From Acidobacteriaceae bacterium (GTDB lineage: Bacteria; Acidobacteriota; Terriglobia; Terriglobales; Acidobacteriaceae): 47,626 nt of DNA. The DNA is taken from NCBI GenBank assembly GCA_003138975.1, contig PLHQ01000209.1, positions 39,394 to 87,019 on the forward strand, written 5' to 3'. The translations under genes were made by a program, and so were the position numbers. Positions 13,327 to 17,329 of this stretch are shown in pieces. Within the stretch, counting starts at the first letter, position 1. Each line of letters starts with the position of its first letter. The notes beneath the pieces were generated by a model. The model made no database searches. It was not told where the DNA came from and worked only from the letters and a program-made list of their open reading frames with translations.

Positions 13327-13608
13327 TTACCGCGCCCCGCCCGCGATCGAAGGCACGAGCAGGACTTCATCCCCATCCTGGAAGGCATAACCCGGCCCAC
13401 CCAGAAAGCGGATGTCTTCCTCGTTCACATAAATATTGAGAAAGCGGCGCACCTGTCCAGCCTCGTCGCGCAGATGGGGCTTCAGGTCCGGAAACTTCTC
13501 ATCGAGGGCGGAGAACAGTTCTCCCAGGTTCGTGGCCGAACACGCGAGTGAGCTTACGCCCGCGGTGTGCCGCCGCAACGCGGTCGGAATTTGTACTGTG
13601 ATTGCCAT
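13327..13608 (-). CDS. MoaD/ThiS-family ubiquitin-like sulfur carrier with a Gly-Gly-Ala-Arg tail
   Basis: A 93-residue beta-grasp protein (ITVQIPTALRRHT; FLNIYVNEEDIRFLGG; GDEVLLVPSIAGGAR). Carriers of this family are activated at a C-terminal Gly-Gly and hold sulfur as a thiocarboxylate. Here two residues (Ala-Arg) follow the Gly-Gly, so processing would be needed first. Known parallels are the HcyS-Ala precursor of Wolinella and tailed carriers trimmed by JAMM proteases. AGGAGG, 5 bases before the ATG, overlaps the region of the thrC stop 12 bases upstream, so the gene is translationally tied to the threonine synthase-like gene and lies under the same SAM riboswitch. No other molybdopterin or thiamin genes are near, so a role as MoaD or ThiS proper is unlikely. 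Confidence 0.85.
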   Translation of the reverse strand: MAITVQIPTALRRHTAGVSSLACSATNLGELFSALDEKFPDLKPHLRDEAGQVRRFLNIYVNEEDIRFLGGPGYAFQDGDEVLLVPSIAGGAR

Positions 13609-13620
13609 CGTATGCCTCCT

Positions 13621-14937
13621 CTATGCGCCCACAGTGGCCGCCGCTTCTTTCCCGACCTCGACAGTGTCCAGCGTTTCGTGCAGATACTTTTCGAATTCGG
13701 CCAGCTTGGGTGCAATCGGTCTCTCGATCTCATATACGCCAGCGAGCACATCCGTCGTCTTCAAGCCGTTGCCGGTAATGCACAACACGGTCGTTTCCTC
13801 GGGCAGGATGCGGTCCTGGCGATAGAGCTTGCCTGCACTACCCACGGTCACGCCGCCGGCGGTTTCGGTAAAAATGCCTTCAGTTTCCGCCAGCAGACGT
13901 ATCGAATCGATCACTTCGGGATCACTCACGTCCTCGCTCCATCCGCCGCTGTGCTTGATGGTCTTGATGGCATAGTGCCCGTCGGCGGGATTGCCAATGG
14001 CGAGCGAACGCGCGATGGTGGTCGGTTTTTGCGGGTCGATCTCAGCGCTGCCGGTCTTCACCGCCGTAGAAATCGGTGAGCACCCGGTAGCCTGCGCTCC
14101 AAAAAACTTCACTGGCTTCTCTTCGACTAACCCCAGCTTGATCAGTTCGTCGAACGCCTTCTTGACCTTCGTGATCAAAGACCCGCCAGCCATGGGAATT
14201 ACTACGTTGTCAGGCAGCCGCCAGCCCAGTTGCTCCGCGATTTCGAAGCCGACGGTCTTCGAGCCCTCGGCGTAGTAGGGCCGCAAGTTGACATTGACGA
14301 AACCCCAGCGCTGCTGTTCGGCAATCTGCGAGCACAGGCGGTTCACCTGGTCGTAGTTTCCCGCGATGCGGACTACATTCGCGCCGAAAACTTGCGTGCC
14401 GAGAATCTTCGCTGGCTCGAGATCGGACGGAATAAATATCCAAGCCGTGAGACCGAGGCGCGCTGCGTGCGCCGCCACCGCGTTAGCCAAGTTTCCGGTT
14501 GAAGAACAAGCGACCGTATCAAAGCCGAAAGCCTGCGCCTGTGCCAGCGCCACGGCAACCACGCGATCCTTGAAGCTCAGAGTCGGCAGACATACGGCGT
14601 CATTCTTGATGTAGAGATTCTGCGCGGCAGTTTTCGCATCACTCTTATTGCCAGCTAGGCGCGCAGCCAGACGCGGCGCCTGACAGAGCGGCGTAAATCC
14701 GACTGGCAGTCGGGGCTCAAAGCCCGCCGGCAAAGGCAGCAATTCGGAATAGCGCCACATGTTCGGCGGCCGTTGCGAAATTCGCTCACGGCTGAACGTT
14801 CCTTGGGCTACTGCGTCCCTGATCGCATCATAGTCGTAGGTAATTTCCAGAGGAGAGAAGCACTCGTCACAGATCGAGCGGGGCTGGTTTCCCCAGCTTC
14901 GGCCGCATTCCCGGCAGCGCAGTTCGTATTGAGCCAT
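13621..14937 (-). CDS. thrC: Threonine synthase-like PLP enzyme under SAM riboswitch control
   Basis: Fold-type II PLP enzyme, 438 residues from the ATG at 14937 (a TTG at 15000 is in frame but lies in the leader). The N-terminus has a zinc-ribbon (Cys8, Cys11, Cys23, Cys26: CRECG and CDECF). The PLP lysine is Lys123 in PTLSFKDRVV; classical threonine synthases have a Gly directly before SFKDR where this has Leu. The phosphate-binding loop is ACSSTGNLANAVAAHAA. Threonine synthase converts O-phosphohomoserine to threonine. The upstream SAM-I riboswitch and coupled MoaD-like gene suggest that this subfamily may instead use O-phosphohomoserine for sulfur transfer to homocysteine (inference). The plain threonine synthase call remains the default. 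Confidence 0.85.
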   Translation of the reverse strand: MAQYELRCRECGRSWGNQPRSICDECFSPLEITYDYDAIRDAVAQGTFSRERISQRPPNMWRYSELLPLPAGFEPRLPVGFTPLCQAPRLAARLAGNKSDAKTAAQNLYIKNDAVCLPTLSFKDRVVAVALAQAQAFGFDTVACSSTGNLANAVAAHAARLGLTAWIFIPSDLEPAKILGTQVFGANVVRIAGNYDQVNRLCSQIAEQQRWGFVNVNLRPYYAEGSKTVGFEIAEQLGWRLPDNVVIPMAGGSLITKVKKAFDELIKLGLVEEKPVKFFGAQATGCSPISTAVKTGSAEIDPQKPTTIARSLAIGNPADGHYAIKTIKHSGGWSEDVSDPEVIDSIRLLAETEGIFTETAGGVTVGSAGKLYRQDRILPEETTVLCITGNGLKTTDVLAGVYEIERPIAPKLAEFEKYLHETLDTVEVGKEAAATVGA

Positions 14938-15011
14938 TTGGCTACTCGCTTTCTTTGGCAGCAGCGAATAGCTGGGGACGAGCCGGGAAAAAGTGCCCAA
15001 AAGAGAAAAGG

Positions 15012-15039
15012 CCTCTTTTCCAGGAAATAGGAAAAGAGG
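15012..15039 (-). terminator. Intrinsic terminator of the SAM riboswitch
   Basis: Perfect 10-base stem CCTCTTTTCC/GGAAAAGAGG (arms 15012-15021 and 15030-15039) with an 8-base loop. On the minus strand it is followed by the pyrimidine-rich CCTTTTCTCTTTT. It lies 36 bases downstream of the aptamer and 74 bases before thrC. A segment between aptamer and terminator (GCATTCCGAT) can pair, with one bulge, with TTCGGATGC at the end of P1, which would serve as the antiterminator. Confidence 0.75.
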
Positions 15040-15075
15040 TTATCGGAATGCAAATACAAATAAGCTTCGCATCCG

Positions 15076-15191
15076 AATCTCATGTTCCCCGTTTCCGGGC
15101 GGGAGTTGGCACCTGGCGGTCGGGATATATGATCCCGATCCGGTTGCCGTGGCGTCATAGGGCTCGTCCCTCAGCCACTCTGCATGAAATT
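15076..15191 (-). promoter_or_regulatory. SAM-I (S-box) riboswitch aptamer
   Basis: Read on the minus strand, all parts of the SAM-I aptamer are present. P1 is AATTTCATG with CATGAGATT (15183-15191 and 15076-15084, one G-U pair). The P2 core is AGAGTGGCTGAGGGA then CGAGCCCTATGACGCCAC, with GTGGC/GCCAC pairing. GGCAACC lies at 15142-15148. P3 is TCGGGAT/ATCCCGA (15120-15138). GGTGCCAA lies at 15106-15113. P4 is CCCG-GAAA-CGGG (15088-15099). A separate 7-base hairpin (15195-15214) precedes it. SAM binding should hold P1 closed and allow the terminator at 15012-15039 to form, switching off thrC and the carrier gene. Confidence 0.94.
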
Positions 15192-15225
15192 CCGGTTTGC
15201 CCCGAAAGGCAAACTTGTCCTTATG

Positions 15226-15254
15226 ATGCTACACATCCGAATGTGGATCGTCAA
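15226..15254 (-). promoter_or_regulatory. Sigma-70-like promoter of the riboswitch-thrC-moaD-like operon
   Basis: On the minus strand TTGACG (15249-15254) and TAGCAT (15226-15231) are separated by exactly 17 bases. Transcription would begin near 15219, about 28 bases before the first base of P1. The position just upstream of the riboswitch supports it. Confidence 0.65.
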
Positions 15255-15328
15255 GAGGCCAGCGTATCGCGGCTTGGGCCAGTTGTTCCGAACGCTCTCC
15301 ATCAGTACACTCTGTTCGCGAGGTGTAC

Positions 15329-17329
15329 ATGGGCAAGATGGGAAAGCATTTTGGGCGTTTAACACTGGGTTCGAAACAAGCAATTTTTTGTTTGCGCAGC
15401 GTCGTCGTTCTGTCGCTTGTGAGCAGCCTCCTCCTATTTCTTGAATTATGTTCCGCTCAGACCCTCGGTTTGCCCAGCGAGACACCGGCTACGTTCACGC
15501 CTGTCACGTCGAGCTTTGACCACATCAAGCGCGATGTGATGATCCCGATGCGCGACGGAGTAAAACTGCACACCGTCATCGTTCTGCCCAAAGGCGCAAA
15601 GAACGCGCCGATCCTATTGACGCGAACCCCTTACAGCGCGACTGCACAAACCAGTCATGCCGATAGCTCGCACCTCGGTCCGATCCTGAGTGGCTATGAC
15701 AATGCGACCGACGCGATCGTCGAAGGTGGCTATATCCGCGTGGTGCAGGATGTTCGCGGAAAGTATGGCTCTGAGGGCGACTATGTGATGACCCGCCCGC
15801 TGCACGGGCCGCTAAACCCTACGCCGGTCGATCACTCCACCGACACGTATGACACTATCGACTGGCTGGTCAAGAATGTCCCAGAAAGCAATGGCAAAGT
15901 TGGCATCCTCGGCATTTCCTACGACGGTTTCACCACCCTGATGGCATTGGTCAACCCGCATCCGGCCTTGAAAGTCGCGGTGCCCATGAATCCCATGGTC
16001 GATGGCTGGATGGGCGACGACTGGTTTCACAACGGCGCTTTCCGCGAACAGAATATGAATTACATCTACCAGCAGGAGGCCACGCGTGCGTCGGAAGAAA
16101 AATGGTGGACGAACCACTTTGACGACTACGACGTTTTCATGGAGGCCGGCTCAGCCGGTGAACTCGGTCGTCGCCACGGACTAGATCAAGTCGGCTTCTG
16201 GCGCAAACTTCTTGATCATCCGAGTTACGATTCCTGGTGGCAAGAACAAGCGATGGACCGCATTCTCGCCGCTCAGCCTCTGAAAGTGCCCACCATGCTG
16301 GTCGACAGCCTGTGGGATCAGGAAGATATCTACGGGGCACCCGCGGCCTACAAAGCGCTCAAAGCAAAAGACGCCAACAACGATAAGCTATTTCTGGTGC
16401 TCGGCCCCTGGCATCACGGCCAGGAAATTGGCGATGGCAGCTCGCTTGGAGCACTAAAGTTTAATAGCGATACCGGGCTCTATTTCCGGCAGGAAATTCT
16501 GCGGCCCTTCCTGGATCAATATCTCAAAGACGGCGCGCCTAAGGCCGACATCGCGCCCGTTACCGCTTTTGAAACCGGAACGAACACGTGGCGTCGACTG
16601 CCCTCGTGGCCAGCTGGCTGCGCAAGTGGCTGCACCGTTCAACCAACGCCACTCTATCTCAACGCCGGTCTGAAGCTTAGTTTGGCCGCTCCCAAGCCGG
16701 GCGACGCGGCGTTCGACGAATATATTTCCGACCCCGCCAAACCCGTACCTTTCCGCCGGCGTCCCATTCAACCCATTGGATACGGCGATCGCTTCACTTG
16801 GGCGGAGTGGCTGGTCGACGACCAGCGCGAAGCTTCTGGCCGTCCAGATGTCGCGGTGTTCACCTCCGACGTGCTTACCGCACCCATGAAGATCAGCGGA
16901 CAGCCGGTTTCCAATCTCGTAGCCTCGACCAACGGCACGGACTCTGATTGGGTGGTCAAGTTGATCGACGTATATCCCGACGAAGTGGCCGGCGACGCCG
17001 CTATGGGCGGCTATCAGTTAATGATTTCCGCCGACATCTTCCGCGGCCGTTATCGCGAAAGCCTGGAGACCGCTAGGCCCATCGCCCCGGGCCAGCCGCT
17101 GCTCTATCGCTTCAACCTTCCCACGGCAAACCACGTCTTCCTGCCCGGCCACCGCATCATGGTGCAGATTCAATCCAGCTGGTTCCCGCTGTACGACCGC
17201 AATCCGCAAACTTTCGTTCCCAACATCTTCTGGGCAAAGCCGGACGACTACCGCAAAGCTGCACAGCGCGTGTATCACACGCCCGCCCAAGCCAGTTTTA
17301 TCGAGCTGCCTCTGGTGAGGACGCCGTAG
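15329..17329 (+). CDS. Secreted CocE/NonD-family hydrolase (S15 peptidase-like)
   Basis: An alpha/beta hydrolase of the X-Pro dipeptidyl-peptidase/cocaine esterase family, about 666 residues. A long signal peptide (core VVVLSLVSSLLLFLELCSA) points to export. The domain starts with RDVMIPMRDGVKLHTVIVLP. The nucleophile is about Ser197 in GILGISYDGF, the acid is in MLVDSLWDQEDIYGA, and the His is in LVLGPWHHGQEIGDG. The C-terminal jelly-roll domain (PADIFRGRYRESLE-like segment, HRIMVQIQSSWFP) is typical. Members cleave proline-containing peptides, glutaryl-7-ACA-like amides or esters; the substrate is not predictable. The ATG at 15329 has GAGGTG close upstream; a GTG at 15323 and an ATG at 15338 are alternatives. 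Confidence 0.88.
   Translation: MGKMGKHFGRLTLGSKQAIFCLRSVVVLSLVSSLLLFLELCSAQTLGLPSETPATFTPVTSSFDHIKRDVMIPMRDGVKLHTVIVLPKGAKNAPILLTRTPYSATAQTSHADSSHLGPILSGYDNATDAIVEGGYIRVVQDVRGKYGSEGDYVMTRPLHGPLNPTPVDHSTDTYDTIDWLVKNVPESNGKVGILGISYDGFTTLMALVNPHPALKVAVPMNPMVDGWMGDDWFHNGAFREQNMNYIYQQEATRASEEKWWTNHFDDYDVFMEAGSAGELGRRHGLDQVGFWRKLLDHPSYDSWWQEQAMDRILAAQPLKVPTMLVDSLWDQEDIYGAPAAYKALKAKDANNDKLFLVLGPWHHGQEIGDGSSLGALKFNSDTGLYFRQEILRPFLDQYLKDGAPKADIAPVTAFETGTNTWRRLPSWPAGCASGCTVQPTPLYLNAGLKLSLAAPKPGDAAFDEYISDPAKPVPFRRRPIQPIGYGDRFTWAEWLVDDQREASGRPDVAVFTSDVLTAPMKISGQPVSNLVASTNGTDSDWVVKLIDVYPDEVAGDAAMGGYQLMISADIFRGRYRESLETARPIAPGQPLLYRFNLPTANHVFLPGHRIMVQIQSSWFPLYDRNPQTFVPNIFWAKPDDYRKAAQRVYHTPAQASFIELPLVRTP

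Follow-up and report, generated by a model that had tools for sequence, protein, structure and literature searches.

A probable MetM/MetO homocysteine synthase unit behind a SAM-I riboswitch in an Acidobacteriaceae bacterium

Why should a gene resembling that of threonine synthase stand behind a riboswitch for S-adenosylmethionine (SAM)? The question is raised by a 47,626-nucleotide stretch of DNA from an Acidobacteriaceae bacterium (GenBank assembly GCA_003138975.1, contig PLHQ01000209.1, positions 39,394 to 87,019 of the forward strand), hereafter the window, in which a SAM-I riboswitch is followed by a gene for a threonine synthase-like (ThrC-like) enzyme dependent on pyridoxal 5'-phosphate (PLP) and by a gene for a small sulfur carrier. 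An earlier note on this DNA had proposed that the enzyme forms homocysteine from O-phosphohomoserine and a protein thiocarboxylate. Gene order, the riboswitch, the clade of the enzyme, a separate thrC-thrB pair in the genome and a distribution opposed to that of MetX support this proposal, and we consider it highly probable, judging from sequence, that the unit encodes a MetM/MetO homocysteine synthase which a SAM-I riboswitch turns off.

The unit and its enzyme

The whole unit lies on the minus strand and is read from 15254 down to 13327 in the order promoter-like site, SAM-I aptamer, hairpin, metM-like gene and metO-like gene (Table 1). The earlier note had described each of these elements, placing the aptamer at 15076-15191, and all were recovered: the Rfam match covers the complete SAM-I model, with a gathering score of 44.4 bits, and is the sole Rfam match in the window; the hairpin with its T-rich tail is present, shuffled sequences averaging 0.3 such sites; the promoter-like site is present, but weak; and the two genes, with PALP and ThiS matches, respectively, are separated by 12 bases containing AGGAGG. 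A second promoter-like site of this stretch lies on the plus strand within the aptamer, and shuffled sequences average 0.3 sites of that kind. In the 5.45-Mb genome the leader of metM-metO carries the one SAM-I match.

Folding of the leader with ViennaRNA gave the aptamer with its P1 stem, a second hairpin and the terminator, while the predicted alternative pairing combines the 3' part of the aptamer with the 5' arm of the terminator and the bases following that arm. For the first 170 nt, in which the second arm of the terminator is incomplete, the alternative fold was calculated at -60.2 kcal/mol versus -59.2 kcal/mol for the fold with P1 forced, a gap of 1 kcal/mol. As modelled, aptamer, terminator and alternative fold are arranged as is usual for a transcriptional OFF switch. 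A comparable hairpin stands at a comparable distance in the close kin L168-L171, L173 and L174; among 22 riboswitch leaders checked for a terminator, L172, L180, L245 and L187 have hairpins at other distances and six have no terminator-like hairpin, suggesting that other lineages may use other platforms.

The open reading frame (ORF) of the metM-like gene begins mechanically at a TTG at 15000 and stops at 13621. The ATG at 14937 is the probable start, since alignments with relatives begin at residues 2-6 of the protein read from it. PALP (PF00291) is the one Pfam family that the protein matches, the MetY family (PF01053) being unmatched, and it shares 31% and 33% identity with the two other ThrC-like proteins of its own genome. 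The nearest named records among the matches listed, 83-91% identical, are metagenome-assembled genomes called Acidobacteriaceae or Candidatus Sulfotelmatobacter, which points to an acidobacterial host of this type.

The earlier note had suggested a tree of carrier-linked ThrC proteins against classical ThrC. Ours contains 73 rows, namely 63 loci hand-picked from 160 (L068-L077, L088-L117 and L128-L247), the window protein, L248 and eight ThrC proteins, with Nonomuraea gerenzanensis standing in for Streptomyces MetM. One branch, with support of 100/100 and a length of 1.31, splits the 65 MetM-type rows from the eight ThrC rows, and places the window protein with the MetM type, not with ThrC; the branching order within ThrC is unsure owing to the very long branches of several rows there. 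In Nonomuraea gerenzanensis, an actinomycete, SAM-I, MetM and MetO occur in the same gene order as in the window; its MetM, 53.8% identical to that of the window, is on the MetM side, while a ThrC-like match at another place in that record groups with ThrC.

Residues of the alignment follow the same division. Specifically, L150, R219, Y222, D319, G320 and G362 are identical in all 65 MetM-type rows and present in none of the eight ThrC rows, while the lysine of SFKDR is conserved in 73/73 rows. The leucine before SFKDR, which the earlier note took as the mark of a distinct subfamily, is indeed present in the window protein and is a good though imperfect mark of its clade, being found in 33 of the 36 MetO-linked rows (two Phe, one His) and 22 of the 29 rows without MetO (five Phe, two Cys), and in 0/8 ThrC rows.

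Table 1. Positions of the features of the metM-metO unit in the window
Feature	Position	Strand	Evidence
Promoter-like hexamers, TTGACG-17-TAGCAT	15226..15254	-	Consensus scan, 9/12 matches; weak
SAM-I (S-box) riboswitch aptamer	15077..15190	-	RF00162 74.9 bits, model 1-108 of 108
Predicted alternative (antiterminator) pairing, 15096-15079 with 15038-15023	15023..15096	-	ViennaRNA
Intrinsic terminator of riboswitch	15012..15039	-	Terminator-like hairpin, 10-pair stem, T-rich tail
metM-like gene, threonine synthase-like PLP enzyme, 438 aa	13621..14937	-	PALP 212.5 bits, NCBIfam thrC 251 bits
metO-like gene, MoaD/ThiS/CysO-type sulfur carrier, 93 aa, ending SIAGG-AR	13327..13608	-	Pfam ThiS 45.2 bits

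The unit is flanked by a divergent gene for an S15-type peptidase (15323-17329) and, downstream, by a TetR/HlyD/ABC exporter set; we saw nothing that connects either of them to it.

Threonine and methionine genes in the genome, the family and the phylum

A second thrC, for which the earlier note proposed to search, was found on contig C90, where a canonical thrC is followed by a GHMP (homoserine) kinase gene, thrB. A third ThrC-like gene (L006:1294-2514, contig C119) is of the PRK08197 type (536 bits, cut-off 303). No strong MetX was found in the genome: the best match, of 111 bits, was rejected as MetX, being an alpha/beta hydrolase with an N-terminus that by eye resembles a signal peptide. 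A homocysteine route through PF01837 was likewise rejected, that protein family being unmatched in all 120 family genomes searched, this one included.

We then compared 395 genomes of the phylum, 50 of them from the same family. SAM-I was present in 155, a MetM-type protein (E 1e-80 or better) in 100, a MetX-type match (1e-40 or better) in 127 and HTS, the MetA-type protein, in 33; the cut-off of the curated MetX model was reached by none of the 395, nor by any of 14 controls. MetM occurs in 38 of the 50 family genomes, and the riboswitch is present in 37 of these versus 0 of the 12 without MetM. MetX, counted at E < 1e-100, shows the opposite pattern (5/38 with MetM versus 9/12 without; Fisher p 1.2e-4, the genomes being related and their independence therefore overstated). 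This count of 14 leaves out G231 and G237, with matches of about 1e-42, and includes G303 and G356, whose matches contain one internal stop codon. Outside the family, with MetX counted at E < 1e-60 and 16 genomes with weaker matches dropped, MetX is present in 8/62 genomes that have MetM and 87/283 that lack it (p 0.0044, dependence at the genus level being uncorrected). HTS is present in 2 of the 50 sampled family genomes. In G074, a genome of the same genus with a listed completeness of 100%, MetM is present, and there is no match to MetX at 1e-40, to HTS at 1e-10 or to PF01837.

Starting from the riboswitch, all ten regions fetched from the family run into MetM and MetO. MetM was found in three of 40 riboswitch stretches of other families, but in 30 of the 40 the sequence ends about 1.5 kb past the riboswitch; the longer sequences from G113 and G153 (L128 and L129) have MetM about 2.4 kb after it.

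Scanning named species of bacteria and archaea gave 591 MetM loci, and the counts that follow concern the best 80. A MetO match of at least 60 bits lies on the same strand in 72, is missing from the stretch in seven and is weak in one; in the 72, MetO is within 600 bases of MetM except in L178 and L197. SAM-I was found upstream on the MetM strand in 26 of the 65 loci examined, including some of Kiritimatiellota, Planctomycetota and Deltaproteobacteria, and in none of the 13 cyanobacterial loci among them, so that the riboswitch is not universal in the clade. A marginal SAM_alpha match (L162:4285-4359, 36.3 bits against a gathering score of 36) precedes one MetM/MetO unit by about 1 kb. In all four loci tested for it, MetO carries a NIL domain fused at its C-terminal end (L204:4257-4769, L211:4263-4775, L222:1809-2321 and L197:5627-6139); this domain occurs in methionine transporter ATPases, and the fusion possibly represents control by methionine.

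The carrier, its tail and the proposed route

The best solved relative of the window MetO is chain C of 3dwg (E 4.7e-21), CysO of M. tuberculosis. MetO tails were inspected in 32 of the 38 family genomes with MetM, of which 31 have MetO; residues beyond Gly-Gly are present in 30 of the 31 proteins, exactly two in 25. The single bare Gly-Gly MetO is that of L143 (G237), which is also the lone sampled family genome with MetM/MetO and no SAM-I match. A good MetO match is present in 88 loci of L128-L247; the carrier ends at Gly-Gly in 47 of them and not in the other 41, which include close relatives of the family and the NIL fusions. A longer, cysteine-rich tail (CCSYCGQ), as if metal-binding, follows Gly-Gly in L075, L095 and L175. 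Carriers of the ThiS/MoaD/CysO type require a free glycine carboxylate for loading, and the tails of MetO should therefore be removed.

The genome has one Prok-JAB (JAMM-type peptidase) match, on contig C122 directly after a CysM-like gene and on the same strand, and about 4 kb away the contig also encodes another carrier, whose tail has 13 residues, and an E1 that includes a rhodanese domain. A second ThiF protein, lacking rhodanese, is encoded on contig C201. Elsewhere in the phylum sample, a ThiF-type E1 gene (L138:5783-6832) stands just upstream of a SAM-I/MetM unit that has no MetO match. In mycobacteria, cysteine is freed from CysO by Mec+, and MoeZR loads CysO as well as MoaD proteins, according to PMC3227635, which provides a precedent for sharing.

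We infer that the E1-rhodanese and the peptidase of C122 serve MetO, and each catalytic step and the switching by SAM are likewise put forward here as predictions. The homoserine kinase of C90 would supply O-phosphohomoserine. The two extra residues of MetO (Ala-Arg) would be cut off first, perhaps by the one Prok-JAB peptidase, and the E1-rhodanese would then adenylate and thiocarboxylate the carrier at its Gly-Gly end. With PLP, MetM would eliminate the phosphate from O-phosphohomoserine and add the carrier sulfur at C-gamma, giving MetO-bound homocysteine, from which homocysteine might be released by the same JAMM-type peptidase, as by Mec+ with CysO-cysteine. At high SAM the P1 stem of the aptamer would form, the terminator would fold and the unit would stay untranscribed.

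A broader proposal, which we offer tentatively as a possibility that may well prove wrong, is that MetO of this family is made as an inactive pro-carrier whose Gly-Gly is capped, usually by two residues, and that one JAMM-type peptidase and one E1-rhodanese, encoded near the CysM-like gene and the second tailed carrier, uncap and load both carriers. Protein-borne sulfur and O-phospho amino acids would then be the starting materials for cysteine and homocysteine alike, and the lineage would depend on this route, in place of MetX, for most or all of its housekeeping homocysteine.

Known systems, alternatives and meaning

Carrier-borne sulfur serves homocysteine synthesis in Wolinella, where HcyS, HcyD and HcyF work with MetY on an acyl-homoserine substrate and a peptidase trims the tail of the carrier. 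The partner in the window belongs to another PLP family, matching PALP and not PF01053, and we therefore rejected a MetY system of this type. A closer counterpart is a ThrC homologue of Streptomyces, MetM, which Hasebe et al. (2024, Appl Environ Microbiol) reportedly described together with a neighbouring carrier gene, metO, whose product is said to act as a thiocarboxylate. The system of the window belongs to this already described MetM/MetO kind. In PMC12172450, which cites Hasebe et al. 2024, MetM is presented as a novel homocysteine synthase converting O-phosphohomoserine to homocysteine, with homologues among cyanobacteria, and metM of S. albulus as having an upstream SAM riboswitch. Both systems have a ThrC-like enzyme, an adjacent sulfur carrier and an upstream SAM riboswitch, and the substrate proposed for the window, O-phosphohomoserine, is that given for MetM in PMC12172450. 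The window differs in its acidobacterial host, in a carrier with two residues after Gly-Gly and in having its candidate E1 and peptidase elsewhere, beside a CysM-like gene. Mycobacterial CysM/CysO, with Mec+ and MoeZR, offers a similar principle, a PLP enzyme and a thiocarboxylated carrier acting on an O-phospho amino acid, as proposed here; however, that system, according to PMC3227635, makes cysteine from O-phosphoserine and its CysM is of the cysteine synthase family, whereas the MetM of the window is of the ThrC family. A CysM/CysO cysteine synthase was rejected, the models and solved structures closest to the enzyme being those of ThrC. Canonical ThrC shares the PLP family and the branch-point substrate with the window enzyme, which differs from it in its low identity to the ThrC-like paralogues of the genome and in lying on the opposite side of the tree.

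Several observations weigh against the assignment to homocysteine synthesis, and they include the grounds on which the alternatives stand. The Nonomuraea row groups with cyanobacterial rows (95/69) and the window elsewhere in the MetM half, so that the branch described by experiment is not the next of kin of the window. In the family, five of the 38 MetM genomes keep MetX, and three of the 50 have neither MetM nor MetX. Among 40 further MetM loci from the phylum sample, MetO was found in 16, and 24 have no MetO match in the stretch (L130-L132, L135, L136, L138, L139, L144-L146, L148-L151, L154-L160 and L163-L165). Some of these 24 MetM-type genes may be threonine synthases. SAM-I stands directly upstream of MetM in L130, L136, L138, L139, L144, L148 and L160, which suggests that such loci may rely on a carrier encoded elsewhere or on another donor. 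Several of the 24 genes lie beside ORFs that by eye resemble homoserine dehydrogenase, homoserine kinase or aspartokinase genes.

The best surviving alternative is a bifunctional enzyme, which would make homocysteine with the carrier and threonine (or 2-oxobutanoate) without it, the balance being set by the supply of MetO. It takes its support from Microcystis, where, in the accessible text of PMC12172450, a metO-like gene adjoins a thrC whose product is 51.6% identical to Streptomyces MetM: this ThrC made threonine from O-phosphohomoserine in vitro and deaminated threonine, and methionine was not raised in cells with high levels of it. The assays, as given in that text, did not include the carrier. 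Against a second role in the window, the genome has a canonical thrC, and the whole unit is predicted to be off under SAM, a control for which threonine synthesis would have no need. We give this alternative a small chance; our estimates overlap, since the bifunctional reading contains that of a MetM/MetO homocysteine synthase.

Homocysteine could also come from a classical route, through HTS or MetX with MetY, leaving the MetM unit some other sulfur role. The search for classical genes that the earlier note had proposed gave a divided answer: as stated above, neither a strong MetX nor PF01837 was found, but contig C116 (L030) carries, side by side, genes for HTS (230 bits) and for a homologue of MetY, which could in principle make homocysteine. 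The refuting case named in the earlier note, a sole thrC beside a complete classical route, fails in its first half, given the thrC-thrB pair of C90, and for the second half the genome offers HTS and MetY without a strong MetX. C116 is only 4.9 kb long and the assembly containing it is listed with 3.08% contamination. Homologues of the pair in G326 and G148 (L255:6025-8526 and L256:5203-7589) are flanked by ORFs that resemble, by eye from their starts, short-chain dehydrogenase/reductase, ligase and decarboxylase genes, which suggests that the HTS/MetY pair belongs to a specialised metabolism cluster. Considering also the scarcity of HTS in the family and the hydrolase nature of the best MetX match, we regard a classical route with some other role for MetM as improbable, while the HTS/MetY pair may still provide a second way to homocysteine.

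An ordinary threonine synthase with an incidental neighbour and riboswitch, for which the passing of the NCBIfam thrC cut-off (167.1 bits), the solved threonine synthases as closest structures and the in vitro activity of the cyanobacterial homologue beside a metO-like gene (PMC12172450, accessible text) speak, is very improbable in view of the separate thrC beside a homoserine kinase gene, the riboswitch in 37 of 38 sampled family genomes with MetM, and the fully supported split from ThrC with its six diagnostic positions.

For a probable MetM/MetO homocysteine synthase, the same cut-off has a practical consequence, since MetM is likely to be annotated as threonine synthase, and software for pathway prediction may then score its hosts as incapable of methionine synthesis. 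MetM-type genes are present in 100 of the 395 sampled genomes of the phylum and in many other phyla. What the present analysis adds is the pattern of MetX replacement and the tailed carrier, with no claim that either is absent from print. The family provides a natural example in which MetM/MetO takes the place of MetX and the riboswitch accompanies the gene, and in many relatives MetM/MetO seems to stand in for the usual methionine pathway.

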